Assembly: GCA_029261295.1 (NCBI GenBank)
Contig: JAJDBP010000004.1
Coordinates: 1-64,000 of the forward strand
Length of the DNA: 64,000 bases
Origin: Nitrospirales bacterium
Lineage (GTDB): Bacteria; Nitrospirota; Nitrospiria; Nitrospirales; UBA8639
Reading direction: 5' to 3'
Shown here in pieces: positions 26,601 through 56,599 of the stretch (its first letter is position 1; every line of letters starts with the position of its first letter). The notes under the pieces are model-generated. The model was not told the DNA's origin and ran no database searches. It saw only the letters and a list, made by a program, of their open reading frames with translations. The translations under genes were made by a program, and so were the position numbers.

Positions 26601-27064
26601 GCATTGTGGTCTTTGGTTGCCTCGCCCCTCACCCTAGCCCTCTTCCCACTGCGGAGAGGGGATACAGATGGTGTTTCCTTCTCACTTCTCACTTCTAACT
26701 TTTCACTTGCTGCGTTGCGGAGCGATAAGACCGCTTCGGTCTCGGTGAGAAATAGTGTGTAGCCCTTACCGCGCGCGAGATATTTCACTTTCTCATCGAC
26801 TTGTCCCTGATTTTCTTCGAAGCTTAACGGCAGTTTGCCAATCTCACGTAGTCTAGTAGCTTTGCCTGTACTCTTTTTTGATTCAAGATCCACTCTCACG
26901 AGTTCTGCTCTCTCTTCAATTGCCATTGAGCCCGATGAACTTATGGAGGATGGCTCGTCATATGACGTGATTCTTTGGCTCCCATCTCCTTGACCAGCCA
27001 AACACAGAAGGCCAATGAGCAGGCCATTCACTTGAAACCCTAATTGCTTGAGAAACTTAAGCAT
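11618..27064 (-). CDS. Giant (about 5148 aa) secreted SBBP/Kelch/CSLREA/beta-helix protein with C-terminal dockerin-like module
   Basis: The start at 27064 is preferred over the in-frame ATG at 27097 because AAGGAG lies 5 nt before it and the encoded MLKFLKQLGF segment opens a clear signal peptide. Order (approximate residues): DUF7948-like domain 60-345; seven SBBP repeats 352-820; seven Kelch repeats 840-1205; two CARDB/DUF11 modules 1211-1475; CSLREA 1478-1561; beta-helix 1575-2500 with a recurring GNYIGTDVTGT-type rung; propeller-like segment 2621-2878; five ~90-aa Cys-pair repeats 2885-3328; second CSLREA 3335-3425; second beta-helix 3435-4335; InlB-like GWSG module 4450-4538; FN3 4541-4625; LamG/jelly-roll-like domain 4645-4851; second InlB-like module; dockerin-like pair of calcium loops (DVDGNGVAD and DVDGDGVAG) 4956-5041; strongly basic tail. 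The whole head-to-beta-helix block appears twice internally. Tandem paralogue of the next gene in its transcription direction. Exported, surface or extracellular; substrate unknown. Confidence 0.92.
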   Translation of the reverse strand: MLKFLKQLGFQVNGLLIGLLCLAGQGDGSQRITSYDEPSSISSSGSMAIEERAELVRVDLESKKSTGKATRLREIGKLPLSFEENQGQVDEKVKYLARGKGYTLFLTETEAVLSLRNAASEKLEVRSEKETPSVSPLRSGKRARVRGEATKDHNAGKGESGTSVIRMKFAGANSAPKVNGDDQLPGIVNYFIGNDPDQWRTQIPTYKKVQYDNLYEGIDLVYYGNQGQLEYDLVVAPGSDPSQIQLAFEGTDVVTVDPDTGDLVISLLYSDQSPPPSGERVRVRGDASDLENATALRLLKPHVYQLVDGKKVEITANYVVQADSSQVSLLPSPLSTSSAVNIQLASYDITKPLIIDPVLHWSTYLGTTGNDGGRGIAVDSAGAVYITGEAGATGFPEAVGNPIQPSGFAGGVGDAFVLKLNSAGTALIYATYMGTTGADSGNAIVVDAAGAVYVTGEAGAAGFPGALGNQIQPGGFAGGSRDVFVAKLNPAGTGIVYSTYLGTSGRDRGVSIAVDGLGAAYITGPTDAAGFPMALGNLIQPGGFAGGPNDAFVAKLNPAGTGLAYATYLGTSGWDEGNTIVVDAAGAAYVVGEAGAAGFPGALGNPIQPGGFAGSGSFGDAFVVKVNPAGNGLVYSTYLGTSGGDAGWGLAVDGAGAAYITGPTEAAGFPGALGNLIQPGGHAGGTDVFVAKVNPAGTALVYATYLGTNGEDFGHHLVVDAAGAAYVTGQTGAAGLPGTSGSVIQPDGHAGGQDAFLAKLNQTGTGIDYATYLGTSGRDVGVNLEVDAAGTVLVTGLTEAAGFPGASESVIQPDGFAGGVDDAFVAKVCNSPPPGTAPGTWIQPSGIGSMVVARAAHTSTRLANGNILIVGGNATTPSFVTHVTAEVFDSTARIFSATGSMDDERALHTATLLPDGKVLVAGGSGATGTLSTAELYTTTSPTSGVFTNTSVSTGGMQVSRASHAALLLPDGNVLLVGGFTSGIGTIGSAELFDSATGLFASSPPGPMNIPRQAPTMTLLPNGTVLIVGGFSGGASTNLAEIYDPTTQLFTLTVGTLNTPRGSHRATLLANGKVLITGGRNRIATNNDFALASAELYDPVTQEFSVTSSMIHERASHAAVLLHEGRVLIASGFENPDGILANSPSLKSAELYDPGIGGGVFTLMAPLNFPRSNSSEFFSVLPNGQVLVIGGSSSTSVADLSTAELYTPNLCGPESDLVLTVTDSPDPVTVGTSLQVDVQVLNGGPDDDAAEVKADTDFSSTDLTFATGGQDPDCTEGTGPMSGHVTCQFGLITKGAEPLRTIIFDTTTAMPGIKAITSTVENVDEFDPDFGNNTQINTFIMQSANPTTDLILTITDTPDPVPLSPGMYSYTLTVDNMGTDVAIATVVTADIPTGVTLDSATFPGGTCSGTGAGPATATCNVGDVDVLSATQIILNMTPTTAGTKTLTATAGSTGPNAVPDLDDSNNTNITETTSVGLKTFTVNSVLDGGDAVPGDGLCETATPSECTLRAAIQEANHLNNSGLDVIGFDVNAGGQQTISPASALPIISDPVVIDGTTQPGFINAPIIELNGSLAGATSFGLFMNGGDSTLRGLVINRFGRTGIVTQSAGNRIVGNYIGTNLDGTAALGNNEEGLTVEGPDNIVGGTRPEDRNVISGNARMGILIQQPTATGNQIIGNFIGTTASGHLALGNGVNGVHIVAAATGNTVGGLLPGSGNVISGNSGGNGVMLGGSGGTLASNNFVQGNYIGTNAAGTAALLNGGGITITGPDNIVGGTTASARNVISGNGTRGILITSGVSGPSAFNNTIQGNYIGTDVTGNVALANGFEGIWIINGAANNTIGGEVAGAGNVISGNNATGLHLGSNTGGASENNVVQGNIIGLTASGDTGLGNSGHGILIITKGNTIGGITAFERNVVSGNTLNGVAIANAGATNNVVEGNYIGMNSAGLLTIPNVVGVSIISSGGNTIGGVNTVPGVGCAGACNLISGNSDDGVSISGSGSDANTVAGNVIGLDINGNVLGNTDDGVFISAPASRNIIGGTTADMRNVISGNGDGVSIFGTATLLGNMVQGNYIGTDPTGLLDRGNLIRGVRIEGASGNCIGGTAPVALGDPCVAPIAGNVIAGTDGDGVILETTATGNYLQGNLIGTNALGTVALGNALTGVSLNGTGVALNSPSNNTVGGTTVAERNVISGNLGNGVVINQTSSSNMVQGNYIGSDVTGTADLGNTQHGVFLSDAPTNTIGGITAGARNIISGNDSIGVRISGPTATGNLVQGNYIGTDLTGTVDLGNTLDGVSLAFAANGNTIGGAVAGARNLISGNGTGVPGGDGVELTSPGTTGNLVQGNYIGTDVTGLLPMANFNGVHVTGGASGNTVGGTLQGSDNVISGNVNTGVSSGGTASTPTNGNLIQGNLIGTDATGMNPLGNGGTGVLFVQFSSFNEIGGTVPGAGNTIAFNGAAGVVVTEQVISPGNAGSGNAINQNVIHTNGGLGIDLASDGITPNDPQDVDGSPNNLQNFPVLEAALSNTNSTTIQGTLNSTPNRTFRLEFFSNSALTGCDASGNGEGEAFLGFANVTTNGSGDVGIETTFSVQIPALDSITATATDLSTGDTSEFSNCVTVTANPIVVAQRIYGLISENSGSTAPGTPTHLFSFLEDGSDLTDHGAVQISNTDIFFADGLALSPVHGLLAFERAELQAEARLIQIDPTTAEATVIGSFQANLEGIRAAVFDEMGQLWVVDINADELLRIDPLTGDEVLSSRVAMSLDTNSFDVNRFSDLAVRADGIMFLVNRNQFFHLNLQTGELSLQFTDNVPDPDTSTAPFHNGAAFSTNAGMFDLFTFDGQTLDDVFQYDLALNFSRTELIQDVVPTVNAGHGDLATLTPMATDLFQVTIDATALSAPQFAIRSIGRFDGTVSQDLQLAPGAYEFCNVRCGGTVFTFTVENDGTVDFDVSLEAYISGRGTDTLVVNGFTVNIDATALTAATFGLQTVIGAALIVPSMEATVVQPVTLVPASYSFCDVRCGAATFAFSVEDDGTVDFDVALDGFLSGRGTTTLVVDGFTVSIDATALSAPTFGLAGNGSGGRQIENLVPTTTVQTFTLVASTNYVFCDVACGSRSFLFTVADDGTVDFDPTLDGFLSGRGTSTLVVDGFTVNIDATALSAPSFGISGNGSGSRRIADPVDSTMILTLTLVAASNYVFCDVTCGTNTFNFSVENDGTVGFDSALDGFLSGRGTSTLMVDGFTVSIDATALTAPTFGLAGNSAASRRIASPVDSTGVQTFTLVASTNYVFCEVSCGAETFEFTVENDGTVDFAPSLGAFVNGRSTTTLVVSDSVAVGLTLTVNVNTDAVGLSGDANPGDGVCETATPGECTLRAAIQETNHANNSGLDLIVFDIGAGGQQTIAPTSPLPNINDAVVIDGTTQPLFAGSPIIELDGTGAGVVGGLNVQAGNSTVRSLVINRFNIGIHLGTNGGNLIVGNYIGTDVTGTQARANGSDGIRMTFSANNQIGGTTAGDRNIISGNTNAGVSIGTPTSSNNRVQGNYIGTDAMGTSALPNTVTGVAIIEAPNNTIGGTASGEGNVISGNNAGGVAIVFPDSTGNIVQGNLIGPDVTGTVALGNGSINSGVTIKSASGNTIGGLSAAARNIISANGGSGISVVVNVVAEGPAEANVIQGNYIGTDITGTVDMGNGVHGVSLSNADNNLIGGTSPGARNIISGNDTQGIGISGTSTGNFVQGNYIGTDVSGAVDLGNTLHGILSSATAGNNTIGGTVAEAGNVISGNDGDGIQFVNAAPGGNQVQGNYIGTNAAGTLALGNSGNGIGLLSNASNHTIGGTTAGARNIISGNGSTGVLIFAAGATGNLVQGNYIGTDVTGTVDLGNTAEGVFISGAPTNTIGGVIAGARNIISGNARDGVEIRGAAATGNLVQGNYIGTDVTGTVDLGNTTRGVRIIDASANTIGGTIPGARNVISGNNLNGVSISGAGATGNIVQGNYIGTDVNGTAALGNSQMGVHISGAPTNTIGGMIASAGNLISGNSFSGVDIEGSGSTGNMVEGNFIGTDNTGAVPLGNTLHGVRISGGVSNTIGGTTALARNVISGNNANGVLIFGASTGNFVRGNYIGTNVNGTEDLGNSQDGVYIDDADTNTIGGDDAADGLVDGLVGARNVISGNLSHGVLISDPGATGNFVQGNFIGTNAAGTAALGNGDRGVRIVFSASGNTIGGTAAGARNVISGNAGAGVELIGSATLTLVQGNYIGTDVTGAAPLGNGNVGVLINEAPSNTIGGTTAGAGNVIAFNTLDGVTVNGTAATGNAILANAIFSNVELGIDFNLDGVTANDPDGTDDDTGPNNLQNYPELLGVSDVGGATVVVGTLTSTPDTAFTVELYKNGTCDASGFGEGETLVHTEAVTTDPTTGTVTFEFTVAPAVATGFGLTATATDPQGNTSEFSNCLLYTVPLSVLEVRLLGNGIGTVTSTPVGLALDSQPGAACTGNQGAECRLVVPQNTVIEHLVAEAASGTNFIGWSGDKCRGPEPCVFSVTAPRTIVGASFCPTVGACDLPETPVGFSCESYWPNTITCSWQPVAEAIGYRVLRGEATREYDVREDIGLVTAHTFTGLEPDVTYYKAVSSLTLPTSGSPLVAAAVGEPEASAPSGEHIHTNVVEFAGDRWVTSAPAENEVDGPAMWEPSTTGPVILKETSGVHDPIEAEGRGALIERPTGSCRLDYKWSTNIQATSMAVGGGQGLIVRYRDENNYYRVAVDWTQGPTQPRLRFLKRTGGVFTEMAPDVDLSDEEAFHLGPAGMPQPKPLEVIVEGNQFTVFLDGLAQYSTVPDAAVHDGLGVGFAVWQNGANAFSPPNEVPIEYLGDPPPDCAALELVAEGTGTGTVQSVVQPAFPEEEAAALPGTPQAAYPLGTTVQLTATAAEPTAGSVEWRGCGPATETPVMASTLAVVMDQTQICQVRFPGTPTQVVTWDVDGNGVADTRDAGMLTRWAFGLRDAAMVEGLIDTNGARASAGAIATYLEAARLTMVDVDGDGVAGTLTDTQIVMRFFHALAAGQTETELRANSALITGVVNPNGTRVTLTAIVDHLLRHLPSGSGVVSALTDPGSEGLPTPTVESLEAPLTPFADVESEEMSKPRQHKEKKNTRQKRRSKRFRKK
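26209..26248 (-). repeat. REP-like palindromic element inside coding sequence
   Basis: Variant copy with CCCTCACCCTAACCC and a less perfect stem. Translated as SPPPSGERVRVRG. The flanking bases (GATGCGTCGCCCC) match those of the copy at 10698 in the paralogue. Confidence 0.75.
26623..26661 (-). repeat. REP-like palindromic element inside coding sequence
   Basis: Variant copy translated as SPLRSGKRARVRG. Flanks (TTTGGTTGCCTCGCC) match the copy at 11112 in the paralogue, so the element predates their duplication or was spread by gene conversion. Confidence 0.75.
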
Positions 27065-27097
27065 GGTTTCTCCTTGTGGAGCATTCAGACAGTACAT

Positions 27098-27586: not shown

Positions 27587-28276
27587 ATGAATCCCTCAAA
27601 TCCCGTCCGGAGTTCGGCCTGGCTCCAAAATATCCCCCTCTTTTCAGAGTTGAATACGCCAGAATTGGAACTCTTGTTGAATTTTTCCTCCAACCAGCGG
27701 GTCGAAAAGGGCAGTCTTGTTTTTCAGGAAGGAGACTTTGGAGATTACTTACTCATTATTTTATCTGGACGAGTGAAAATCAGTTTGATAGGAAAAGAGG
27801 GGAAAGAGTTTATTTTGGCCATTTTAGGGCCAGGAAGTTTCTTGGGAGAGATGGCGTTGCTTGAATCGGCCCCTCGATCCGCCACTGTCACCACCTTAGA
27901 ATCCTGCGTCTTTCTACGACTCGATCAAGGTCACTTTACGTCGCTGCTTCAGACCCATGCTTCTCTCGGCTTAAAATTATTGAAAGCGTTGTGCACTCGA
28001 CTTCGGGAAACCGATGAACGATTGAGAAGTTTAGTGATGCTGGATATTTATGGGCGAATCCTCCATAGTCTTCACACCCTAGTCACACCCGATTCCCCAC
28101 AACCGCTAGAGCGACATTTGGTCATTTCTCCACGTCCTTCCCACCAAGATATCGCTGATATGATTGGTTGTTCTCGGGAAACAGTGAGTCGCGCGATCAA
28201 GGTTTTACAAACTCGAGGCCACATTACTATTCTCAAGCAAGAAATCCTCCTGCATCAGACCATACGCCACACGTAA
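27587..28276 (+). CDS. Crp/Fnr-family transcriptional regulator
   Basis: A 229-aa cytoplasmic DNA-binding regulator of typical Crp length. Residues 15-130 form a cyclic-nucleotide-binding beta-roll. The phosphate-binding cassette reads FLGEMALLESAPRSATV, keeping the Glu, the Arg and the following Ser that hold the cyclic phosphate in E. coli Crp, so real cAMP or cGMP binding is plausible. A long dimer helix follows. The C-terminal winged helix (about 180-215) has the recognition-helix signature CSRETVSRAIKVL. No cysteine set for an Fnr iron-sulfur cluster is seen. The ribosome-binding site is weak. The next gene downstream on the same strand resembles a cyclic-nucleotide phosphodiesterase, and a Crp-like palindrome lies between them, which suggests control of signal turnover by this protein. 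Exact ligand and regulon are not shown by the sequence. Confidence 0.9.
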   Translation: MNPSNPVRSSAWLQNIPLFSELNTPELELLLNFSSNQRVEKGSLVFQEGDFGDYLLIILSGRVKISLIGKEGKEFILAILGPGSFLGEMALLESAPRSATVTTLESCVFLRLDQGHFTSLLQTHASLGLKLLKALCTRLRETDERLRSLVMLDIYGRILHSLHTLVTPDSPQPLERHLVISPRPSHQDIADMIGCSRETVSRAIKVLQTRGHITILKQEILLHQTIRHT

Positions 28277-28294
28277 ATTCCCTATGAGCATTTA

Positions 28295-28310
28295 TGTGAC
28301 ATTTATCACT
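28295..28310 (+). promoter_or_regulatory. Putative Crp-type operator
   Basis: TGTGA, six bases, TCACT: nine of ten core positions of the classical Crp consensus (TGTGA-N6-TCACA). It lies 18 bp after the Crp-family gene and 136 bp before the start of the phosphodiesterase-like gene. The consensus is established for Crp homologues; occupancy here is inferred. Confidence 0.55.
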
Positions 28311-28446
28311 GACTTCTGCGCAGGCATTCAGTACAATGCACCAATATTTTTCATCAGTGAATCACGCTGTCTTCCACCACGAACACAGACTGGACCTCGT
28401 CAACCTTCATCTTGGCATTCCCGTTTAGTGACATGAAGGAATTCTT

Positions 28447-29235
28447 TTGAAAATTAAAATTCTGGGGTCTCACGGGTCTGACCTTTTTTATTCTCAAAAA
28501 GGGGAAAGCCATCGCTGCCAATGCGTTGGCTTCCTCGTGAACGACCACTTATTAGTTGATGCCGGTACGGTGGCATCAGCTCTCGACTTGGAAGGCCAAA
28601 CACGTATTGACCATGTCATCCTCTCTCATCTACATCTTGATCACATCAAAGGTCTTCCGCCGCTTGTTGATAATCGCGTGGGCACCAATGGGCAGCCCAT
28701 TAATATTTGCAGCATACCTCATGTGTTAGATGGCCTTAAAACGCATATTTTCAATGAAATAGTGTACCCTAATTTTTTTACTCTCCCAAAGGGAGAACCC
28801 CCCTACCTTCAAGCATCGATATTGACGGAAGGCAAGGACACCTTGCTGGGGGATATCCGGGTGACCCCTATCCATGTGAATCACACGGTACCCACCGTGG
28901 GGTTCCTTATTCAAGATGATCAGTCGGCCTGGATTTATAGTGGTGACACCTACCAAACCGAGGAACTCTGGGCTCTGGCCGCTCGAATCCCCAATCTAAA
29001 AGGCGCGTTTATCGAAACATCATTTCCGAATGAATATGAGAATCTTGCCAAAGAAAGCAAGCACCTCACCCCGAAATTGTTAGTACAGGAATACCAAAAA
29101 ATCGGCAAGCCAGAACTCCCTCTATATGTGTTCCATTTAAAACCACAATTTCGAGAACAAATTGCCAACCAGCTTCATGATTTATCCCTCCCTTCTCTGA
29201 GCATTCTTCAAGAGGGTCAGGAAGTTGAGATCTAG
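28447..29235 (+). CDS. MBL-fold hydrolase, probable class II 3',5'-cyclic-nucleotide phosphodiesterase
   Basis: A 262-aa protein starting at TTG; GAAGGA 6 nt upstream supports this start and no better ATG lies nearby. The metal motif HLHLDHIKGL (His61, His63, Asp65, His66) has the H-x-H-L-D-H pattern of class II cyclic-nucleotide phosphodiesterases (PDE1/CpdP type) and of the wider metallo-beta-lactamase fold. Further ligands appear at HVNHTVPTVGF and YSGDT. No signal peptide is seen, so it should be cytoplasmic, unlike periplasmic CpdP. The family hydrolyses cAMP or cGMP to the 5'-monophosphate. The neighbouring Crp-family regulator and the convergent nucleotide cyclase 47 bp downstream support that role. 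Other MBL-fold enzymes (for example RNase Z-like) remain possible, but the core motif fits class II better. Confidence 0.75.
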   Translation: MKIKILGSHGSDLFYSQKGESHRCQCVGFLVNDHLLVDAGTVASALDLEGQTRIDHVILSHLHLDHIKGLPPLVDNRVGTNGQPINICSIPHVLDGLKTHIFNEIVYPNFFTLPKGEPPYLQASILTEGKDTLLGDIRVTPIHVNHTVPTVGFLIQDDQSAWIYSGDTYQTEELWALAARIPNLKGAFIETSFPNEYENLAKESKHLTPKLLVQEYQKIGKPELPLYVFHLKPQFREQIANQLHDLSLPSLSILQEGQEVEI

Positions 29236-29282
29236 GATTACCCAGACATTTCTCTGATGTTTGATAGCTGTTGATGCCTTTG

Positions 29283-31220
29283 CTAAACGGGATGCCTTTT
29301 TCCCGTTAATCGATACACCACCATTTCTTGTTCTTTTCCACGCAAACAAAACGTCCCAACCCGTTCCGTTTGCCACTGAGTGTGAATCGCTTGTCGAGTG
29401 GCTTCTCCCATTAAAGTTCGACACACTCCCTGAGTGGACCACTCCGCTTGCGTTTCTTTTTCGAAACTTTCGAGGCGTGAGGCGACATTCACCGTATCTC
29501 CAATGGTCGTATATTTCATACGCCTGGCACTTCCTAAACAACCCATCACTACTGGCCCAGTATGTATGCCGATCCGCATGCGGACTATTGGTAAATTTGT
29601 GGTCCTCCATTCCTGATGCAATCGTTCCATTTCTTCCCGCATTTCCCAGGCACATGCAATGGCCTGAGATGCGTCATATTGGGATTCCTCCTCAGTCAGA
29701 CGGGGTTCAATACTGCCAAAATCAGCTTTGATCATATCCCCATGGTAGTCATCAATTATCCCACCATATCGCATGATAATGCCGACCATACGATCCATAT
29801 ACCCATTCAACCAATCGAGGAGTTCGGACGGCTCTAGTTTTTCTGAAATTCCTGTAAAGCCTTCAAGGTCAGAAAACATGGTGGTGACGATTTGTTTCCG
29901 TGAACGCAACCGTCCTTCTTCCAATACTTCCCTGCGTTCCGCCCACAAACGATCCACAACCTCTGGGGCCACATGGCGACCAAAAATATCTAAAAGAATT
30001 TTCCGTTCTTGTTTTTCCCGATTAGCCATCAATGACGTAACCAGACCTGCTGAAATTATCCAACTCAAGATGGGGGGGATGAACGGCATCCACCACCCCT
30101 CCTGAATCGCCACAACCACCACCGTCCCGATCACGATACAGCCAAGACTTGCAACAAGAGCAAATATCCATGGCTTTCGCATTCTCCAGCCTATAAGGCC
30201 ACCTAAGATTCCCCATAAGAGGATCCAAGTATGTTCCCATCGATCTGAAATTGATTGAATAGGCGCGGCACCCCCATACGCCGCTTGAAGGAGTTGATTG
30301 ACAAGAGTGGCTTGCAATTCAATTCCAGCCATATGATGGCAGTCTGTCCACCACCCACACCACGGCGTATTAAAAAAATCTTTTACTCCATGAGCCATCA
30401 CTCCTACCATGACAATACGATCATGGAATATTTCAGACTGAACCTGCCCCGTTAACACCGCTTTTAGGGAAACCTTCGGAAAGAGTTGATACGCCGTCGC
30501 ATTTAGCAGAAATTGATACCCCGACGCATCCGCATTCCTATAACTCCCATCCGTTGCTTCAAATGGCCTAAATGTCACGTCCCTCAAAGCCACATGTTCT
30601 GGATTCTCAGAGCTCGGTTGCAAGACAATCTCATCTTGTTCGAAATATCGCATGGCCAGTCGCAACGCAAAGGATGTTTCAAAACTTGTGTCATTATTGA
30701 GAAAAAGCAAGCCCCGCCGAACAATCCCCCCTGAGTCCACAATCAAATCGCTAAACCCAATTTGATCCGTCTCCTGTAGGACCGGTGGGCCGGGGATCCC
30801 TCCGTGCATGGCTTCACCAAATTTCATGACCGTAATAATTTCCCGGTTTTGAGAAAGTATCGCCTCCAACTTCTGGGTCCCTGGAGGCACTGGCATATCT
30901 CTATAGATATCCAATCCAATAGCCCGAATCTGTGAGGGCAAAAGCTCTTGCAGTAATTGGGCGAGATCCCTATCTGATAAGGGCCAATGACCCAACCATT
31001 GAATATCTTCATCCGAAATCGTGACGAGCACGATAGGAGCAGTAGAGCTTATGGGATCAGCGTGAAGCTGAAGAGTCCAGTCATAGGCCGCGAGTTCAGG
31101 GATTTCCAACACTCCCAAGGTTCGAATCCCGATTAAGGACAGAACAACCAAAACCACAAGAGCCATGACTTGAAACCATTCATTGGTTGCCAGCCAGCGG
31201 GAAAAAATTTTCACACTCAT
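29283..31220 (-). CDS. CHASE2-domain class III nucleotide cyclase
   Basis: A 645-aa membrane protein. An N-terminal helix (15-35) precedes an extracytoplasmic CHASE2 sensor domain (about 45-325), then three membrane helices (330-400) and a class III cyclase catalytic domain (440-640). The two metal aspartates are Asp451 in FSDLEGFT and Asp495 in HGDMIKADFG. The transition-state Asn578 and Arg582 lie in IGDTVNVASRLE, and the YTTIGD threonine is the class IIIb type. The position usually occupied by the adenine-specifying lysine (five-residue K-x-x-G-D pattern) is Asp491. CHASE2 proteins convert an extracellular signal into a cyclic nucleotide. AAGGGAAG lies upstream of the start. It converges with the phosphodiesterase-like gene. 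The cyclase family is certain; the product nucleotide is not. Confidence 0.9.
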   Translation of the reverse strand: MSVKIFSRWLATNEWFQVMALVVLVVLSLIGIRTLGVLEIPELAAYDWTLQLHADPISSTAPIVLVTISDEDIQWLGHWPLSDRDLAQLLQELLPSQIRAIGLDIYRDMPVPPGTQKLEAILSQNREIITVMKFGEAMHGGIPGPPVLQETDQIGFSDLIVDSGGIVRRGLLFLNNDTSFETSFALRLAMRYFEQDEIVLQPSSENPEHVALRDVTFRPFEATDGSYRNADASGYQFLLNATAYQLFPKVSLKAVLTGQVQSEIFHDRIVMVGVMAHGVKDFFNTPWCGWWTDCHHMAGIELQATLVNQLLQAAYGGAAPIQSISDRWEHTWILLWGILGGLIGWRMRKPWIFALVASLGCIVIGTVVVVAIQEGWWMPFIPPILSWIISAGLVTSLMANREKQERKILLDIFGRHVAPEVVDRLWAERREVLEEGRLRSRKQIVTTMFSDLEGFTGISEKLEPSELLDWLNGYMDRMVGIIMRYGGIIDDYHGDMIKADFGSIEPRLTEEESQYDASQAIACAWEMREEMERLHQEWRTTNLPIVRMRIGIHTGPVVMGCLGSARRMKYTTIGDTVNVASRLESFEKETQAEWSTQGVCRTLMGEATRQAIHTQWQTERVGTFCLRGKEQEMVVYRLTGKRHPV

Positions 31221-31436: not shown

Positions 31437-32714
31437 TTAATTGGAGGATGAGGCCGTTGAGGCGGGGTGAGGCCCTAAAGGAAGATGGATGAAAAATGTT
31501 GTTCCCACATTGACTTCACTTTGCACTGAAATTTTTCCAGAATGGGCTTCAATGACATCTTTGACAATTTTAGTGCCCAGCCCGGTCCCGCCTTTTTTCT
31601 TGCTCATCGCACTTGTCGTAAACAAGCTATCCCGAATCTCGGCTGGCATCCCACGCCCAGTATCCACCACTTCGATCTGAAGAGTGTGATCCGCAGTGTG
31701 GATGTTTCCGCGAATGGTAATGGTACCGCCGGTTGGTACTTCCGTCACGGCGTTGTTTACGAGATTATAAAAGGCATTAAAGAGGCGGCCTTCGTCGGCT
31801 TGGATTGGTGGAAGGTCATCAATCCCTTCATGATGCAGCGTAATCCCTTTTTCTTGTGCAAAGAGTTTTAACGTATCAAAGACCGAGGCTACAACATGAG
31901 CCATTTTACAGGAAGAAAACTTTGGCGCGCTGCTGAGGCCTTTCACACAATCCGCAATTTCCTTCACGCGATCTTGAATGCGACGGGCATTATTACTCAG
32001 CATTTCAATGACTTCATTGCACAGGTCATGGCTTTTTTGGGCTTTGGCTGGAACCGGGCTTTTCATTTCGGTAAACACTTCATCAATCTCATCTTTGAGT
32101 AATGAGGCTCCGCATAACACCGGCATCAGTAGATTTTTCACATCATGTCCAATATCCCCAAGAATGCAAGCCACTTCAGCGAGTTTCGCCTCTTGAAATA
32201 AACGAGCTTGTTCGATGGATAGGGCCGTGAACGAGGCAATGATGGTGAGGATCGCCACATCATCTTGATCTAAGCGACCATCTTGTTTGTTCATGACTTC
32301 CAACACACCAATAGGATGGCCCTCCCACCGTTTGAGTGGAAGGGCAATCATATCCTGTGTGTTAAAGCCTGTATTTTGATCGATTTTTTCGAGGTGCCGT
32401 TGATCACTCTTGGCGTCTTGAACAACCATCGGCTCGCCTTTGGCAAACACCGACCCTGCAATGCCCTCGGTCCACGGGAATGCAGTACCGGGCCGAGGAG
32501 CCTTGTCACCAATGGCATGGTAAAACACCAATTCCTTGGTTTCCGGTTTAGCGAGCAGCACAGACCCCGCTTGCCCATTCACCACTTCTAAGGCAATCTT
32601 TAATCCCTGCTCAACAAGTTCTTCCACACTCAAGTGTTGAAAGAGGGCTTCGCTTATTCGTCGTGCCGCGTCCAGCTCCCGTTCCCGTCGATCCTGTTGT
32701 GGTGAAATCGTCAT
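31437..32714 (-). CDS. GAF-domain sensor histidine kinase
   Basis: A 425-aa soluble kinase. A GAF domain spans about 15-172. A HisKA-like dimerisation region carries the H-box ILGDIGHDVKNLL with His190 as the likely phospho-acceptor, followed by a long helical insert. The ATPase domain has N-box FYNLVNNAV, G1 VVDTGRGMP and G2 GGTGLGTKIV. No membrane segment is present, so the signal should be a cytosolic ligand of the GAF domain. It lies 76 bp downstream of a single-domain response regulator on the same strand, the likely partner and operon mate. The start codon has only a weak ribosome-binding site, which could mean translational coupling or a slightly different start. Confidence 0.88.
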   Translation of the reverse strand: MTISPQQDRRERELDAARRISEALFQHLSVEELVEQGLKIALEVVNGQAGSVLLAKPETKELVFYHAIGDKAPRPGTAFPWTEGIAGSVFAKGEPMVVQDAKSDQRHLEKIDQNTGFNTQDMIALPLKRWEGHPIGVLEVMNKQDGRLDQDDVAILTIIASFTALSIEQARLFQEAKLAEVACILGDIGHDVKNLLMPVLCGASLLKDEIDEVFTEMKSPVPAKAQKSHDLCNEVIEMLSNNARRIQDRVKEIADCVKGLSSAPKFSSCKMAHVVASVFDTLKLFAQEKGITLHHEGIDDLPPIQADEGRLFNAFYNLVNNAVTEVPTGGTITIRGNIHTADHTLQIEVVDTGRGMPAEIRDSLFTTSAMSKKKGGTGLGTKIVKDVIEAHSGKISVQSEVNVGTTFFIHLPLGPHPASTASSSN

Positions 32715-32790: not shown

Positions 32791-33198
32791 TTATGTGGCA
32801 AATTTATCTTTAAAGAGCTCATGGCTATTCGCAGCCTTCTTCACGGCTTCCACCAACTTTTCCGATTCAATCGGCTTGGTGAGGTATTCGACAATCCCTT
32901 GCTTAAAGAGCTCATTGGCATCCGTAAAGTCTGGATTCCCCGTTAACACAATGACCGGGACTGAGGGGAATTGTTCACGGAAATAGGAAATGGCACCCAT
33001 CCCGTTCACATTGGGCATCTGCATATCACAGATAATCGTATCGACCGCCAGAGGATTGTCCCCGGATCGAATGGCGTCGATGCCTTTTTGCCCATCTTCC
33101 GCTTCAACCACATCAAATCCGGCTTTGGTTAACGTCAGCCGGATAGTTCGCCGCACATCTTCTTCATCGTCTACAACTAAAACTCGACCTTCAGACAT
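32791..33198 (-). CDS. Single-domain response regulator (CheY-like receiver)
   Basis: A 135-aa receiver-only protein. The start at 33198 is chosen because GGAGG lies 5 nt upstream and translation then begins MSEGRVLVVDDEE, directly on the receiver fold; an upstream in-frame start at 33249 would add 17 unlikely residues. Acidic pocket Asp10/Asp11, phospho-acceptor Asp58 in IICDMQMP, the switch Thr in IVLTGNP and Lys in YLTKPI are all present. There is no output domain, so it must act by protein contact or as a phosphate sink. It is first in an apparent operon with the GAF histidine kinase downstream. Confidence 0.88.
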   Translation of the reverse strand: MSEGRVLVVDDEEDVRRTIRLTLTKAGFDVVEAEDGQKGIDAIRSGDNPLAVDTIICDMQMPNVNGMGAISYFREQFPSVPVIVLTGNPDFTDANELFKQGIVEYLTKPIESEKLVEAVKKAANSHELFKDKFAT

Positions 33199-33503
33199 GG
33201 AAGCCTCCATTTTGGTAAATAGTCCGGTTTCTGCCAATGAACCGGCCAATGTGAGTATGTGATCAGACTATATATGACTCCAAATTCAGGAATGTGAAGC
33301 GAATGCTCGAGTAAAGTTAAATACGTAAATTCAAAGGTGAATTATCGTATTTACTAGCCGATTTTCATAAAGAAGTCAATTGACATGATGATGGAATCTT
33401 TGAATCGAATGTCTTCATTGATATAAGAGGGGCATGAACGAGAGAAGGCTGAGCAAAAATTTAAGGACTCCTGGAAAATATCAATTGGGGCCCAACCCCA
33501 AAT
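33199..33503. other. AT-rich intergenic region
   Basis: This 305-bp gap lies between the haemagglutinin-like gene and the response-regulator gene, both on the minus strand. It should carry the promoter of the regulator-kinase pair. I see no clear terminator hairpin, operator or small gene in it. Confidence 0.4.
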
Positions 33504-36500
33504 CTAGCATCCAATAAACTGATGGGATTTAAACCGTTTCGGTTCATGTGAGGAAAGATGATGCTTCGATGCACTCCTTGTTGCTTCGGCCATTTGAGTA
33601 TCTGCTGCTGGATGAGAGGCGAGGAGTGGGAAAATGGGGCTGGAAAGCCATCCTCCTGGAACTTGAGGAAGCCCACTTCGATCAACCACGGCAAAGCTAC
33701 TAAATTCTCCGTTTTTTCGAGCAGCACATTTGGCCGAGTACATGGTCCCGATATTGGCAGGCGTTTCAGGAAGAGGAGCAATGGTGCCACTTAAATTTTG
33801 AATGGGTGCCTGAATATCCACGGACCCACTAATACCTAAATCAGAGGTGGCATCAATAATCGTAAAAAGATCTCCAAAAATCACATTGGCCACTAAATTG
33901 ATATTGCCTCCATTACCTTCGAAAGCCCTGGCCAAGATCTGAGAATTTTGCAAAACAATAAAATCAGGGTCCAAGAAAATATCTCCACCACCCGTATCCT
34001 TGTCTCCCTTAACAGAACTGATAATTTGGGAATCTTGAACTTGAATGAGCTTTTTCGTTTTCAGCTCAATATTTCCCCCATTGGCCTGAAGGGCTTCGGT
34101 GGTGATAGAACTATTTCTCACCCGAATAGTATTTTCAGCTAAAAGAGCGATCCTTCCGGCATTTCCGGCTCCTGAACTTTCCGCTGTCACCTTCGATGAA
34201 TTCGCTAACGCAACATTTCTTCCCGATCGAAGCGTAATATTCCCACCACTAGCTTTGCTAGCATCTAGGCCGGAACTCAACGCGGAGACCTGAGTCCCAT
34301 TATTGAGGCTCACCGTTCGAAAACCATCCAAAAGAATATCTCCACCTGCAGCCTCAGCCGCTGCTGTTGTTACCAAAGATCCAGAAACCATAATAGTGGG
34401 AGCGATGATACTCACACTTCCCGCATCACCGGCCCCAAAACTTTCTGCAGAGATATTCGCCCCATTCGTGAGAGCAATCGTATCTTGGGAGGTGACGGTA
34501 ATATTCCCACCGTTACCCGATTGGGCAGTGGTTGAAACGGTACTGGCATCAACCCCCACGAATGCGCCTCCGATCACCGTCACATTCCCCGCATCTCCAA
34601 CCCCAGTACTGGCCGCCGTCACAGATGATCCTTCAGAAAGCTGAACATGATCAAGCCCCTCAAGGAAAATGGTCCCGCCATTAGCTATGTTCGCATCTGA
34701 ACCCGAACTTAGCGCCGAAATAATGGAACCATTCTGTAAATCAATGCCGCCCTGAGAATGCACTACTATATCCCCACCTGTAGATTGAGCAGCTGAAGTA
34801 TTGACTCGTCCCCCGTCACTCAAAAAATTATTATTCACCTGAAACTCGACCTTCCCAGAATTACCTTGACCTTCACTTGAGGAAGAGACGGTTCCAGAGG
34901 TTCCGAGTTGAACGGTATCCGAATGGACAAGAATATTTCCTCCTCCACCATCCCCGGACGCGGTCGTGAAAATACCACTGGAAAGACCATTTTGATCTTG
35001 GCCATTGATGACAACCATAGACGCATCAGATCCATCTCCGGTAAGCCCTTGTATGGTGACCGTGCCTCCGGCACCGGTTGCCGTGGTACTGCTATCAATG
35101 CGAGCCCCACCAGTTAATTCTAGGGCATTCAGATTCAAGGTAATAAGACCGGCATCCCCAACTCCCCCACTACTTGCCGATAATCTGGCTCTATTATTCA
35201 CCGCCACTTGGCGTGCATGAATACTTAAATCTCCCCCAGTGCCATCCCCGGCAGTCTCTGTAATTAAGCCAGCACCAACCCCATCAAGGATGACCGAATC
35301 GGCTACCGAACCAGGCCCATTGATACCTTGAATGAGTATAACCCCCCCCCCACTTTTCGGAGGTATTCCAGAAATATTGGTTGGAATACTGCGAGTATTA
35401 ATGCGTGCCCCATCGCCTGTTAAGGATAAGTTCTGAACATCTAAGACCACATTGACCGCCCGGCCACTTCCCCCCGTTATACCAACAATACCGGTTTCAG
35501 TCCCAGTCGCATTAATAGAAAACTGATGTGCACGGATATGGATATCCGAGGCTGAGGCTGGACTGTTCAAATTTTCAGATTTGATCTGCGAACCAGCATC
35601 GATAATAAAGCTACCCGCAATATCAAGATCAATACTCCCACCTTGCCCCTGATAGACTGAAGACAATTGGGAGTTGATGAAACTTCCACCACCAAGCCTC
35701 AATCCTTGGGCCTGGACCAGAATATCACTTCCATCCCCACCACCTTGGACGATAGCATTCAACGTCGAGCCGCCCAGAATATCGATCTGTCTTCCTTCAA
35801 TCAGGATATCGCCAGCATCCCCGAGAAACACGTTCGATTGATCTAATGCACCAGCAGAACGAGCGGTGATCGCACTGTGCCCCGAAAGCATGACATCATC
35901 CTGAACCTTAATATCGATAGCGACAGGTGCCCCATCAAGATTGCCGACGGTGTCGCTCCGAATTTGCGAATTATTGTCCAGCACAAGTTGGCCGCCACGA
36001 ATGATAATGGTCCCACCCCTCGTGGTCGGATCTTCGAGATCACTCAAATTTAACTTTCCCGATACACGTAAAAATGTACTGTCAAAGGTAATCGTTCCCC
36101 AATCGGTCACACCTGACGTGCCCTCTGAAAATGCCGCCCCTCCCTGGATGGCGCTCGAAACCTCCCCATTAGAGGCCAATGATGTCAAAATGATATTCCC
36201 ACTCCGAGCATTGATCGTCCGATCCCCGATATCGATGTCTCCTCCCACGATACCCAAAGTCGCACTATTCGCCATATTCAAAGTCGCACCAGCATCGATG
36301 AAAATTGACGCAGGGTTGCCGGATAAAAATCCAAATGCAGAAGGCGGGGCAGCCGTAAACATGCTCCCAATCTGGCTTTCATTTGAGGAGAAAATACCTC
36401 GCCCTTCGCCTTCCCCTAAACTAATAAAATCTGCTGTCGTGACATAAAACGATCCACCAATATTGAGGCTTCCCTGAGGGCCAAACACGATTCCATTCGG

Positions 36501-36917
36501 ATTGAGAAAAAAAAGATTGGCATTGGATTGTTGGACAGCAGGAAGGTGAACATCAACCCCCAACGTCCCAAACAAATGAGAGGGATTGGTGCCTGTCACT
36601 CTACTCAAGATATTGGCGGCACCTTGAGAATAGAAATTTCCTGTGTCCCCTACACCCACTTGAAAATCAGAAAAACTATGAAACAAGCTCGATCCTTGGG
36701 TATGACCCCCAGTAATATCAAAACGAGTCCCCGAAGGTTCGATCACAGGGGCCACGACTGAATTTTGTCCACCAGGGAGGGTCGTATCGGGAAGAATCGA
36801 AGTGACAACTTCCGCCCATGACTTGGCATGCCACACACTTAGCAAACACCCCACTATCATGAAACTTAGTAGAAATCGACCTCGGGGCTCATTTTCAATG
36901 TGAATGGGTCTTTTCAT
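33504..36917 (-). CDS. Filamentous-haemagglutinin N-terminal-domain adhesin (TpsA-like)
   Basis: A 1137-aa exported beta-helix protein. The start at 36917 is preferred to the ATG at 36932 because GGGAGA stands 6-7 nt before it. Signal peptide to about residue 36. The two-partner-secretion domain (about 37-175) has LPGGQNSV, a GxTRFDI segment, ANLFFLNPNGIVFG and an FYVTTADFIS end, as in the cyanobacterial-type TpsA group. The rest is glycine-rich adhesin beta-helix with GNGGNI- and GDAGSV-type rungs. The C-terminus has a single-Cys SAKCAARK segment and SSFAVVDRSGLPQVPGG, a tail common in this group. A ten-G tract sits near residue 524. TpsA proteins are exported by a TpsB outer-membrane pore; none is encoded in this window. 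Confidence 0.88.
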   Translation of the reverse strand: MKRPIHIENEPRGRFLLSFMIVGCLLSVWHAKSWAEVVTSILPDTTLPGGQNSVVAPVIEPSGTRFDITGGHTQGSSLFHSFSDFQVGVGDTGNFYSQGAANILSRVTGTNPSHLFGTLGVDVHLPAVQQSNANLFFLNPNGIVFGPQGSLNIGGSFYVTTADFISLGEGEGRGIFSSNESQIGSMFTAAPPSAFGFLSGNPASIFIDAGATLNMANSATLGIVGGDIDIGDRTINARSGNIILTSLASNGEVSSAIQGGAAFSEGTSGVTDWGTITFDSTFLRVSGKLNLSDLEDPTTRGGTIIIRGGQLVLDNNSQIRSDTVGNLDGAPVAIDIKVQDDVMLSGHSAITARSAGALDQSNVFLGDAGDILIEGRQIDILGGSTLNAIVQGGGDGSDILVQAQGLRLGGGSFINSQLSSVYQGQGGSIDLDIAGSFIIDAGSQIKSENLNSPASASDIHIRAHQFSINATGTETGIVGITGGSGRAVNVVLDVQNLSLTGDGARINTRSIPTNISGIPPKSGGGVILIQGINGPGSVADSVILDGVGAGLITETAGDGTGGDLSIHARQVAVNNRARLSASSGGVGDAGLITLNLNALELTGGARIDSSTTATGAGGTVTIQGLTGDGSDASMVVINGQDQNGLSSGIFTTASGDGGGGNILVHSDTVQLGTSGTVSSSSEGQGNSGKVEFQVNNNFLSDGGRVNTSAAQSTGGDIVVHSQGGIDLQNGSIISALSSGSDANIANGGTIFLEGLDHVQLSEGSSVTAASTGVGDAGNVTVIGGAFVGVDASTVSTTAQSGNGGNITVTSQDTIALTNGANISAESFGAGDAGSVSIIAPTIMVSGSLVTTAAAEAAGGDILLDGFRTVSLNNGTQVSALSSGLDASKASGGNITLRSGRNVALANSSKVTAESSGAGNAGRIALLAENTIRVRNSSITTEALQANGGNIELKTKKLIQVQDSQIISSVKGDKDTGGGDIFLDPDFIVLQNSQILARAFEGNGGNINLVANVIFGDLFTIIDATSDLGISGSVDIQAPIQNLSGTIAPLPETPANIGTMYSAKCAARKNGEFSSFAVVDRSGLPQVPGGWLSSPIFPLLASHPAADTQMAEATRSASKHHLSSHEPKRFKSHQFIGC
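35342..35351 (-). repeat. Homopolymer tract (ten G on the coding strand) inside the adhesin gene
   Basis: Ten consecutive C on the plus strand, read as G on the coding strand, encode a Gly-Gly-Gly-Val stretch near residue 524. Tracts of this length in surface genes are classical slipped-strand phase-variation sites. A one-base change would truncate the protein soon after this point. Confidence 0.6.
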
Positions 36918-37060
36918 ATTTGATTCTCCCATTTTCCAAATAAAAGCCTATCTCACCAGAACCTCTCCTAAAATGCAAGATAATGCTCCATTCCTGCTGA
37001 TTCACAGCAATCGGCGGTCCCAACATTAATGTCGTCAATGATCCCCTATGGGAATTCCTA

Positions 37061-52683: not shown

Positions 52684-52904
52684 AGGGTCTCTCCTTTGTC
52701 CTGTAAATTCCTCTTGCCGGAATTTCTTTACTCATTATTGTTGTTTCAAGCATTGCTTCTTCACTGTTTGTATTTTCTTTAACGGCGGCACGTGTGATCG
52801 TTCATGGCATTCCGTCGCTCCACACCAATCAGGAGCCCTTCCGGGACCGATGGAAGCACACCGTTGTTGCCCTCCACCTGTTGGGGAATGGGAATGTTGG
52901 TGTG

Positions 52905-53597: not shown

Positions 53598-54253
53598 AAA
53601 ACGCTTCCTTTATGGATTATGAATAATGAAAAAATAAGACGGCTCCTACCTACCATTATCCCTTGTGCCTTTCTGCTAAGAAAATACGCCAACTTCATCA
53701 ATTAGGGCCTATCTTCCCATAAAATCCACAAGCAATAACAGTTCCTTGATAAAATTGGTTCTTCCCAGGACACCACTTAATACATTTATGAGGCAATTCA
53801 GCCACTTGTAGAATTTCAGGGGATAACTGAAGTTGCATCGAAGATTGTACATTTGTATCTCTTTAGATACATTTTTCATCTCAATAGATACAATTTCAAG
53901 CAAACATTCTGTTGGTTTTTTGGATATCAGCGTAGGAGTTAAAAGAGGCAATTGGAATGTTCAGTTATTTTTCATTCGAAGACCTGATACTTCGCAGTTA
54001 TTCCCTCAGACATATACCACTCGATATCACTAGAGATTTATTGCTTCAGCCTCATCCCAGCACAAGGACACGTTAAACGTTGGGATTCCTCATCCGTCGT
54101 TTTTCCAAGAGAAAACTCGCAGACCTTGGGTCAGGTCAGATTTGGGATGGGCGGTCAATATCCTTTTTCCTCTGTGCTCAGTCATGGAACCTTATTTGCA
54201 TTACATGACTGAGGCTCTTACAATTTGCTTTGTCCAATCTGATCGGATTTCGT
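53598..54253. promoter_or_regulatory. AT-rich region upstream of the CHAT gene with nested inverted repeats
   Basis: A 656-bp region between the divergent remnant and CHAT genes. TTGTATCT at 53853-53860 is the inverted match of AGATACAA at 53886-53893, and an inner AGATAC at 53865-53870 also pairs with the first arm. This could be an operator with two half-site spacings. No convincing coding region is present; short open frames here have no ribosome-binding site and odd composition. Confidence 0.35.
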
Positions 54254-56599
54254 ATGAACTTCTACTCTTTTCTCAATCCTTCCAAAATTCAACTCCCAAA
54301 CTTCAGGCTCACCCTGCTTCCTAGATTTGTCCTCGTCGCATGTATTATTTTCTTGCCTATGGACGAAGTCGATTCCCAAGAATTTTCCAGTTCTCAATTA
54401 CTGTCTCAAGGGGAATCCTTTGCGCAACATGGCGACCTTGAAGAGGCGGCAAAAAGTTTCTCCTCAGCCGCCCATCAATTTGAGGCTGAAGATAATCCTC
54501 AACAGCAAGGGCAAGCGCTTCTTCGCCTCGCGCATACCTTGATCGGACTTGGGCAATATCAACGGGCCCAACTTGTTTTAAAATTCACAATTAATCTGGA
54601 ACAGACTCTTGGTGATTCACCCACCACCAGTTTGGCCATGGGCCAGCTAGGAAATGTCCTGTTCGCGCTCAACCAACCTGAGCAAGGCCTTACGCTTTTA
54701 CAGCAAAGCCTAGAACTCGCCCGACAGGAAACGCAACCGTTGTTAGTGGCCAGCCTGTTAAATGACCTTGGCAATGCTCTTGTCAGCCAGAAACACTATG
54801 ATCAGGCTTTGGCGGCGTATACGGAGGCGTACGCTCTTGCCCAATCTGATGGCGCACACACGCTCGCCGTCCGTGCCTTAATTAATTCCGGCTTTGTTTC
54901 TGCCTACCAACATTCCCTGGTCGATGCGAAAGAACGGTTCGACCAAGCACAAGTTCGGTTACGAACCATGCCACCTAGCCATGACATCGCTTCGGCGCTC
55001 CTCAGCGTAGGGAACGGCTATGCGAATATATTGCACCAGACCACCGGACCTCAGCTGCAAGCGTTGGCCACTCAGACAGCTCAAACATTTCACGACGCCG
55101 CGGTCATGGCAGCCTCAATCAAAGATTGGCGTACCGAATCATACGGATGGGGGTTTTTAGGGCATGTATATGAACAGGAGGAACGCTGGGAGGAAGCCTT
55201 AGAGCTTACCCGACGTGCCATTCTCGCCAGCCAGCGGACTTATGCGCCCGAATCGCTGTATCAATGGGAATGGCAAATGGGGCGAATTCTTCGAACAGTA
55301 GGGAAACCTGATCAAGCCATCCTTTCTTATCAACGTGCGATTTATACGCTTCAACCTATTCGACGAGAATTGGTCTTCGGGTTGAAAGAAGCGACGTCAT
55401 TCCGCCAAACCATTGGTCCCATGTTTTTTGAACTCGCCGACCTCTTACTTGAGCAAGGTGAAGCCACATCAGAAGCAACGGTTCAACAAGACTTCCTCAT
55501 TCAGGTTCGCAATACGGTGGAAGGCTTTAAAACGGCTGAATTACAAGATTACTTTAAAGACGATTGCGTAGAGGCGACCCAAGCCCGCATTCAAACCATC
55601 GACAAGGTGTCGACCAATACGGCCATTATTTATCCCATTATATTCCCTGATCGAACTGAACTACTTGTGAGCATCGGAGAGACGATTCAGCGATTAACGA
55701 TTTCTATTTCTGAAAAAGAATTGGCCCAGTCTGTCCATGCCTTCCGACGGTTGTTGGAAAAACGTACGACTCGTCAATATCTCCCGCATGCCCAATCCCT
55801 TTACGACCTCTTGATTCGTCCCATGGAACCCTTATTTGAAAAATCTCAGGTTGAGACGGTGGTCTTCGTCCCAGACGGTCCCCTGCGGACCATTCCGATG
55901 GGTCCTTTACACGATGGCAAAAGTTTCTTGATTGAAAAGTATGCCCTGGCCACGACGCCGGGCTTAACCTTAACTGACGCTACATCAACCCGTCGTGGTG
56001 AATTACGCCTTCTTTCTGTGGGTCTGACCGAAGCCAGTCAGGGCTTCTCGCCCCTTCCAAACGTCAAAGCCGAATTAGCCGCACTCACCGTTCTCTTTGA
56101 AGGAGAAACATTATTGAACGATGAATTCGTCATTGCCCGCATGGAACAAGCCATGAAAAAAGAAGAATTTTCAATCGTTCACATTGCCTCCCACGGCAAA
56201 TTTGAAGCGGAAGTCGAAAATTCTTTTCTCCTAGCATTTGATGGCAAACTGACCATGAACCGGCTCGATGAATTAATTGGTTTATTTCAGTTTCGAGAAA
56301 CCCCTCTTGACCTTCTCACACTCAGCGCCTGCGAAACAGCTGCAGGAGATGACCGAGCAGCCCTAGGCTTGGCAGGCGTGGCAATCAAAGCCGGCGCGAG
56401 AAGTGCACTGGCCACCCTCTGGTTTATTAACGACAAGGCTTCTTCGGATATCGTCGAAACTTTTTATAAAGAGCTAAAAAATCCGGCCATATCTAAAGCC
56501 CAAGCCCTACGACAGGCTCAACTGGACCTCTTAACTCATCCCGCCTATCGACATCCCAGTTATTGGTCCCCCTTCCTCATGATCAACAATTGGCTTTAA
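54254..56599 (+). CDS. CHAT-domain (caspase-like) peptidase with TPR-like repeats
   Basis: About 781 aa from the ATG at 54254; a TTG at 54230 would add eight residues. A hydrophobic signal or anchor (about 20-36) is followed by helical TPR-like repeats from about 45 to 400 (QGQALLRLAHTLIGLGQY, LLNDLGNALVSQKHYDQAL and similar). The CHAT domain occupies about 530-781: VVFVPDGPLRTIPMGPLHDG, the catalytic-type His647 in HIASHGKF, Cys693 in TLSACETAAG, and the conserved GLAGVAIKAGARSALATLW. The active-site pair is intact, so proteolytic activity is plausible. CHAT-TPR proteins are caspase-HetF-associated peptidases. The hydrophobic N-terminus suggests a periplasmic or membrane location, close to the nearby giant surface proteins, but no substrate is shown. 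Confidence 0.9.
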   Translation: MNFYSFLNPSKIQLPNFRLTLLPRFVLVACIIFLPMDEVDSQEFSSSQLLSQGESFAQHGDLEEAAKSFSSAAHQFEAEDNPQQQGQALLRLAHTLIGLGQYQRAQLVLKFTINLEQTLGDSPTTSLAMGQLGNVLFALNQPEQGLTLLQQSLELARQETQPLLVASLLNDLGNALVSQKHYDQALAAYTEAYALAQSDGAHTLAVRALINSGFVSAYQHSLVDAKERFDQAQVRLRTMPPSHDIASALLSVGNGYANILHQTTGPQLQALATQTAQTFHDAAVMAASIKDWRTESYGWGFLGHVYEQEERWEEALELTRRAILASQRTYAPESLYQWEWQMGRILRTVGKPDQAILSYQRAIYTLQPIRRELVFGLKEATSFRQTIGPMFFELADLLLEQGEATSEATVQQDFLIQVRNTVEGFKTAELQDYFKDDCVEATQARIQTIDKVSTNTAIIYPIIFPDRTELLVSIGETIQRLTISISEKELAQSVHAFRRLLEKRTTRQYLPHAQSLYDLLIRPMEPLFEKSQVETVVFVPDGPLRTIPMGPLHDGKSFLIEKYALATTPGLTLTDATSTRRGELRLLSVGLTEASQGFSPLPNVKAELAALTVLFEGETLLNDEFVIARMEQAMKKEEFSIVHIASHGKFEAEVENSFLLAFDGKLTMNRLDELIGLFQFRETPLDLLTLSACETAAGDDRAALGLAGVAIKAGARSALATLWFINDKASSDIVETFYKELKNPAISKAQALRQAQLDLLTHPAYRHPSYWSPFLMINNWL

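Follow-up and report, generated by a model that had tools for sequence, protein, structure and literature searches.

In Pseudomonas aeruginosa, the Crp-type cyclic-nucleotide receptor Vfr activates cpdA, the gene of a cyclic-nucleotide phosphodiesterase, in the service of homeostasis, a precedent for the activation of a phosphodiesterase gene by a Crp-type protein (PMC3535393, PMC13001225). The CyaD1/Clr/SpdA system of S. meliloti comprises receptor cyclases of the CHASE2 type, a Crp-type regulator and a phosphodiesterase-like gene at the cyclase locus (PMC4222275, PMC10127613). In the CgrA-GcyB/C cyclic GMP (cGMP) circuit of Rhodospirillum centenum, a Crp homologue acting on TGTGA-N6-TCACA is encoded next to cyclase-related genes and is subject to local autoregulation (PMC4681086). 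Cyclic nucleotides are also hydrolysed by enzymes of the metallo-beta-lactamase (MBL) fold with an HxHxDH site, such as yeast PDE1, Bacillus YhfI, Rv1339 and phage Apyc1 (PMC9293780, PMC9117128). Here we describe a locus of a Nitrospirales bacterium in which related parts lie side by side. The stretch analysed, referred to as the window, consists of 64,000 nucleotides (assembly GCA_029261295.1, contig JAJDBP010000004.1, positions 1 to 64,000). An earlier reading of its bare sequence, called below the original prediction, had placed in it three adjacent genes, for a Crp-type regulator (crp), an MBL-fold phosphodiesterase (pde) and a CHASE2 cyclase; all three open reading frames were confirmed at the predicted coordinates, and Pfam domains agree with each assignment (Table 1). 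We consider it probable that together they make up a circuit dedicated to a 3',5'-cyclic purine nucleotide, which limits itself by negative feedback and is attached to a locus for the secretion of surface proteins.

Judged by analogy, Vfr-cpdA is the nearest functional parallel to the proposed circuit. CpdA is a class III metallophosphoesterase, whereas the Nitrospirales enzyme has the MBL fold, and Vfr is a global regulator, whereas in the genome studied here strict sites are almost confined to pde. SpdA likewise belongs to class III, unlike the MBL-fold pde product, and the described Clr target, smc02178, shows class I spacing (-61.5), as opposed to the class II position predicted at pde (PMC4222275, PMC10127613). 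The likeness to R. centenum would cover the recognition sequence, the adjacent cyclase gene and local autoregulation; the CgrA loop feeds forward on cyclase subunits and on cgrA (PMC4681086), whereas the predicted Nitrospirales target is the degrading enzyme. Among the MBL-fold enzymes, the family of the pde product, for which cyclic-nucleotide hydrolysis is predicted, is distinguished by a PDE1-like FN...P segment and, at a length of 262 aa, by matching PF02112 as well as PF12706.

The regulator can be assigned to the Crp subfamily of Crp/Fnr by the Gly-Glu and Arg-Ser pairs of its phosphate cassette and by the C-helix Thr; its score against the E. coli CRP equivalog NF008732 is 116.3 bits, below the curated cut-off of 266. 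Its best solved relative is the entry 7pza, which we take to be S. meliloti Clr. In the orthologue alignment, G87, E88, R97 and S98 of the phosphate cassette and T142 of the C-helix are kept; they presumably correspond to G71, E72, R82, S83 and T127 of E. coli. The equivalent residues of Clr have been described (PMC10127613). The intact cyclic-nucleotide pocket of the original prediction holds for the cassette and the C-helix Thr, whereas the position of E. coli S128 is occupied by Asp143. The recognition helix is CSRETVSR, whose Arg, Glu and Arg correspond to the DNA-contacting residues of E. coli CRP, predicting a TGTGA-N6-TCACA target, and a conserved operator of this kind is found in cis.

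The operator is located in the 170-bp spacer between crp and pde. GTGA-N6-TCACTGAC and the -10 positions T-A-n-A-n-T are invariant across five crp-pde spacers that are otherwise poorly alignable. When two further same-genus loci are included, seven of seven close crp-pde loci (window included) have the core and, 21-22 nt past the 16-mer, a hexamer resembling a -10; the operator is then centred at -41.5 or -42.5 relative to the predicted start. A separate promoter scan chose the same -35 and -10 hexamers, promoter hits overall being no more frequent than in shuffles. When each spacer was shuffled, 0.2-1.0% of the shuffles contained the core, and 0-1 of 5000 contained the core together with a -10; the latter figure is optimistic, as the -10 pattern was set after viewing the sequences and was made wide enough to accept the TAAATT of the two same-genus loci. 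The core is present in 7 of 9 non-redundant pde loci with an upstream crp relative, versus 1 of 41 without (Fisher 2.4e-6, computed with 1/42, and not a strict probability, the loci being related). The two upstream-crp loci devoid of the core, L010 and L011, have regulators with an identity of 32-34%, that of L010 with a different recognition helix. The only core-positive locus without an adjacent crp (L018, genome G125) shows no evident -10 at the expected spacing from the core; a 54% identical regulator is encoded elsewhere in that genome. No site was found at L039 and L042, where a more distant cyclic-nucleotide-binding regulator lies beside pde, nor at the pde of G271, whose regulator is on another contig. 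Tandem Crp-type sites, 23 bp apart, precede pde in L019/L094 (L094:15664-15702), L020/L095 and L003; of such a pair, only the promoter-proximal site is present in the window.

Sites elsewhere in the genome were evaluated by pattern searches. WGTGA-N6-TCACW occurs 15 times (6 for the reversed control), and 8 times in genome G253 (control 4). Only 2 of the 15 are intergenic: the pde site and one located 15 bp 5' of an rpsH-like gene, probably by chance; in G253 the pde site is the only strict one outside open reading frames of at least 70 aa. The exact TGTGA-N6-TCACA palindrome is found twice in the genome, as often as the reversed pattern, and a global CRP regulon of strict sites was rejected on this ground.

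The original prediction had suggested that a local signal, acting through the regulator, may control the adhesin genes. None of the window's large surface genes has a site within one mismatch 5' of it, weaker sites being possible, and strict sites are almost all intragenic; direct Crp control of these adhesin genes is therefore not supported. The wider claim, that the circuit belongs with surface proteins, stands in another form, as orthologous cyclases lie in or near two-partner secretion (TPS)/CHAT loci. TPS, CHAT or ShlB genes were found within about 30 kb of the orthologous cyclase in 12 of 13 genomes, the exception, G077, having no match to any of them, and in eight of the 13 a CHAT gene lies directly 5' of the cyclase on the same strand. 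These genomes carry CHAT and TPS genes at other places too (one to five copies or so of each), and the 12 cases, being related by vertical descent, are not independent. In the window, less than 6 kb separates the start of the TPS gene from the cyclase, and in G127 (L138:1-14339) TPS, ShlB, CHAT, CHASE2 cyclase, an unknown protein of 256 aa, response regulator and histidine kinase genes form one run in a single direction, an arrangement which suggests that the TPS/CHAT loci of Nitrospirales regularly include a CHASE2 cyclase and a kinase. The tie to surface proteins is thus genuine, and runs through the cyclase, not through visible Crp sites at adhesins.

It may still be asked whether weaker or indirect sites allow the regulator to control the surface-protein genes nearby, either in addition to pde or as its main targets. 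The conserved cyclase-TPS linkage would fit such a role, as would a perfect TGTGA-N6-TCACA in L108/L109, located 5' of a LuxR-type gene followed by a LamG-domain, lipoprotein-like gene. Given the site searches just reported, and the failure of the regulator to match at E 1e-20 in several genomes with a TPS-linked cyclase, we regard this as unlikely. The palindromes in question (L108:9123-9138, L109:8126-8141) follow a cyclase-pde-crp run and lie about 110 bp 5' of the LuxR-type (GerE) gene; the LuxR-type/LamG pair is a candidate output of a related circuit.

As to the sign of regulation, operator position and -10 spacing correspond to the geometry of a class II Crp activator. This position, its constancy in seven loci and the dependence on an upstream crp indicate that the regulator most likely activates pde, which would result in negative feedback. 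Repression of pde, yielding a positive, latching circuit, appears quite improbable to us. It could be argued from the overlap between the operator and the -35-like CTGACT, and from the fact that some Crp-type regulators act as repressors; overlap with the -35 is, however, usual at class II Crp promoters, and a centre at -41.5 or -42.5 with a constant 21-22 nt to the -10 is the arrangement of a class II activator. A class II site has been described as near the -35 element (PMC10127613). In favour of a positive circuit, R. centenum CgrA activates cyclase subunit genes in a feed-forward loop (PMC4681086).

The pde product was predicted to be a cyclic-nucleotide phosphodiesterase, and computation makes a strong case for a class-II-like enzyme of this type. 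Its metal motif, SHLHLDH, falls within the definitions given for typical and atypical class II enzymes, HxHLDH or [T/S]HxHxDH (PMC9293780), and H61, H63, D65, H66, H146, D167 and H230 are invariant in 29 relatives. PF02112 is matched above its cut-off of 23.7 bits, over profile positions 82-141 of 340 only, and all 29 aligned relatives match both PF02112 and PF12706. When the family profile was searched, yeast PDE1 ranked first (4.3e-14), the next entry reaching 3.8e-8. Foldseek, run on an AlphaFold2 model (mean pLDDT 94.6), also ranked PDE1 first, then YhfI and Apyc1, with ribonuclease Z closely behind; identity to the PDE1/YhfI/Rv1339/Apyc1 group in fold alignments is about 16-20%, and an H-x-FN-x5-P motif is shared with PDE1. 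The Rv1339-type equivalog NF041851 gives 36.1 bits, below the curated cut-off of 400. YhfI prefers cyclic AMP (cAMP) and cGMP (PMC9117128), and yeast PDE1 is dual-specific for the two, according to a title cited in the same paper. That the protein is another MBL hydrolase, its proximity to crp and cyclase being incidental, is very improbable: ribonuclease Z and PhnP are near it in fold and their models match it below cut-off, and many Nitrospira relatives have housekeeping neighbours, but PDE1 leads in both profile and fold, the distinct proteins ranked after it by fold are cyclic-nucleotide phosphodiesterases as well, the H-x-FN-x5-P motif is shared, pde is found grouped with cyclase and crp genes in several families, and a Crp-type operator sits at its promoter. 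A Pycsar reading, raised by the closeness to Apyc1, was dropped, as the receptor here is a transcription factor and not a toxic effector. A second copy of the family in this genome (L113:9832-10617; G000:C26:127831-128616), 46% identical, contains four in-frame stops and is likely a pseudogene.

The membrane-sensor cyclase of the original prediction is borne out: the protein can be classified as class III with a CHASE2 sensor from its domains, the metal pair Asp451/Asp495 and the transition-state residues Asn578/Arg582, all kept according to the orthologue alignment and residue tally; a few orthologues (family f2) have His in place of the transition-state Arg. The purine-specifying Lys is replaced by Asp491, as in every close orthologue examined, and the second specifying position is Thr571. 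The Lys of adenylate cyclases is hence missing, so that 'adenylate' is not to be assumed, and Asp491 with Thr571 also differs from the Glu and Cys of guanylate cyclases. In Ma1120, replacement of Lys by Glu, with Thr at the second position, raised guanylate cyclase activity, ATP being still preferred (PMC4215837). From this precedent and the Asp491 substitution, the product may be cAMP, cGMP or both. In L108/L109 the cyclase carries the canonical Lys-Asp pair, which would fit a cAMP-based form of the circuit in the same class. The clusters of L094 and L095 include a second CHASE2 cyclase-like protein (L094:8711-11071, L095:12161-14479), whose second specifying position is Arg and whose metal or glycine residues are partly lost; it is perhaps a catalytically dead sensor. 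More tentatively, and with considerable doubt on our part, the Asp-for-Lys CHASE2 cyclases might be a separate subfamily whose product, cGMP or a mixture of cyclic nucleotides, serves as the signal of Nitrospirales TPS/CHAT loci, a Crp-type regulator and a class-II-like phosphodiesterase having been added in some lineages as a self-limiting reader-eraser pair.

In the circuit that we propose, the CHASE2 cyclase would sense a periplasmic or extracellular cue and, its metal and transition-state residues being intact, would make cAMP or cGMP. The regulator, judging from its pocket, would bind this nucleotide and, once loaded, occupy TGTGA-N6-TCACT at -41.5 and activate pde in class II fashion; the MBL phosphodiesterase would then hydrolyse the messenger and reset the signal. 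From the linkage of the cyclase to the TPS/CHAT locus, the cue probably has to do with the exported TPS surface protein or with the state of the cell surface. The co-location of synthesis, degradation and response claimed by the original prediction is well supported by the fold and residues of the phosphodiesterase, the conserved operator and promoter, and the proximity of pde to cyclase and of pde to crp, which recurs in other genera and families; pde-cyclase-crp clusters of differing gene order are found in L001, L094 and L108/L109.

Several points weigh against this interpretation. The regulator has no match at E 1e-20 in several genomes having both cyclase and pde, and in many Nitrospira genomes the pde relative lies beside housekeeping genes such as accD, not beside cyclases. 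The Asp491 substitution leaves the cyclase product uncertain, and strict-site searches identified no output genes. SpdA of S. meliloti, phosphodiesterase-like and encoded at a CHASE2-cyclase/Clr locus, is inactive on 3',5'-cAMP and Clr-independent, a precedent indicating that location alone can mislead on the function of such a protein (PMC4222275).

Table 1. Features of the cyclic-nucleotide locus and its surroundings, in window coordinates.
Feature	Position	Strand	Evidence
Crp-type transcription regulator (229 aa)	27587..28276	+	Pfam PF00027 90.6 bits, PF13545 HTH_Crp_2, PF00325 Crp
Predicted Crp-type operator TGTGACATTTATCACT, centre about -41.5 from predicted pde start	28295..28310		Conservation in crp-pde spacers
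Predicted pde promoter	28309..28337	+	-35-like CTGACT 28309-28314, 17 nt, -10 TACAAT 28332-28337
Predicted class-II-like MBL-fold phosphodiesterase (262 aa)	28447..29235	+	PF12706 65.1 bits, PF02112 PDEase_II 43.9 bits
CHASE2-sensor class III nucleotide cyclase (645 aa)	29283..31220	-	PF05226 CHASE2 190.6 bits, PF00211 Guanylate_cyc 79.3 bits
GAF-domain histidine kinase, 5' of cyclase, same direction	31437..32714	-	PF02518, GAF
Receiver-only response regulator, same direction as kinase and cyclase	32791..33249	-	PF00072
TPS-domain (filamentous-haemagglutinin-like) exoprotein	33504..36932	-	PF05860; genome search
TPR-CHAT protein	54230..56599	+	PF12770; relatives directly 5' of orthologous cyclase in eight genomes

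Transcription of pde is predicted to begin at about 28344. The pde start codon is TTG, preceded by AAGGAA at 28436-28441, and the catalytic domain of the cyclase is encoded at 29304-29900. The cyclase gene converges on crp and pde from the opposite strand, which rules out a single crp-pde-cyclase operon. It is the last gene of a run, absent from the original prediction, in which a response regulator gene and then a GAF histidine kinase gene precede it; the run lies shortly 3' of the TPS exoprotein gene, the sole TPS gene that the genome search detected. Read-through from the TPS gene into this run was considered; a terminator-like hairpin 3' of the TPS gene speaks against it, though such hairpin matches are not above shuffled expectation. 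Relatives of the kinase (73-76% identity) are found at the pde/cyclase loci L002, L005, L008, L094 and L095, and a response-regulator relative (62% identity) adjoins kinase and cyclase in L138. Most named relatives of the locus come from Nitrospirales/Nitrospirota metagenome-assembled genomes.

The genome (4.06 Mb, 38 contigs) contains eight cyclic-nucleotide-binding domains and only two PF00211 cyclases, so that the neighbourhood cannot be put down to chance in a genome rich in cyclases. The second cyclase (C9, 1203 aa, motif DQDTNA) has a strict Crp site shortly 3' of it, within an open reading frame. Other proteins with cyclic-nucleotide-binding domains are possible effectors (L047, L049, L050, L053; G000:C30 and C6); the four L-numbered loci correspond to a patatin/NTE-like protein, two pyridine-nucleotide oxidoreductases and a haem-oxygenase-like protein. 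The genome's DUF7948 matches all fall in the window, in giant surface-type proteins (1-11565, 11618-27097, 52905-53597); the search showed an in-frame TGA in the copy at 52872-53270.

Every component of the locus is of a known kind. In the literature searched, no description was found of an MBL class-II-like phosphodiesterase under a dedicated Crp class II promoter, nor any account of a CHASE2-Asp cyclase in TPS/CHAT loci, including by a search for CHASE2 with CHAT, and a search on cyclic-nucleotide signalling in Nitrospira surfaced no dedicated study. The locus offers a compact and testable model of cyclic-nucleotide homeostasis in Nitrospirales, in which the reader would activate the eraser. 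Through it, a bacterial class-II-like phosphodiesterase is linked to a Crp operator and CHASE2 cyclases are linked to two-partner-secretion/CHAT loci, and a function is suggested for a pde family matched in 177 of 296 sampled genomes of the phylum, the weakest matches being distant.

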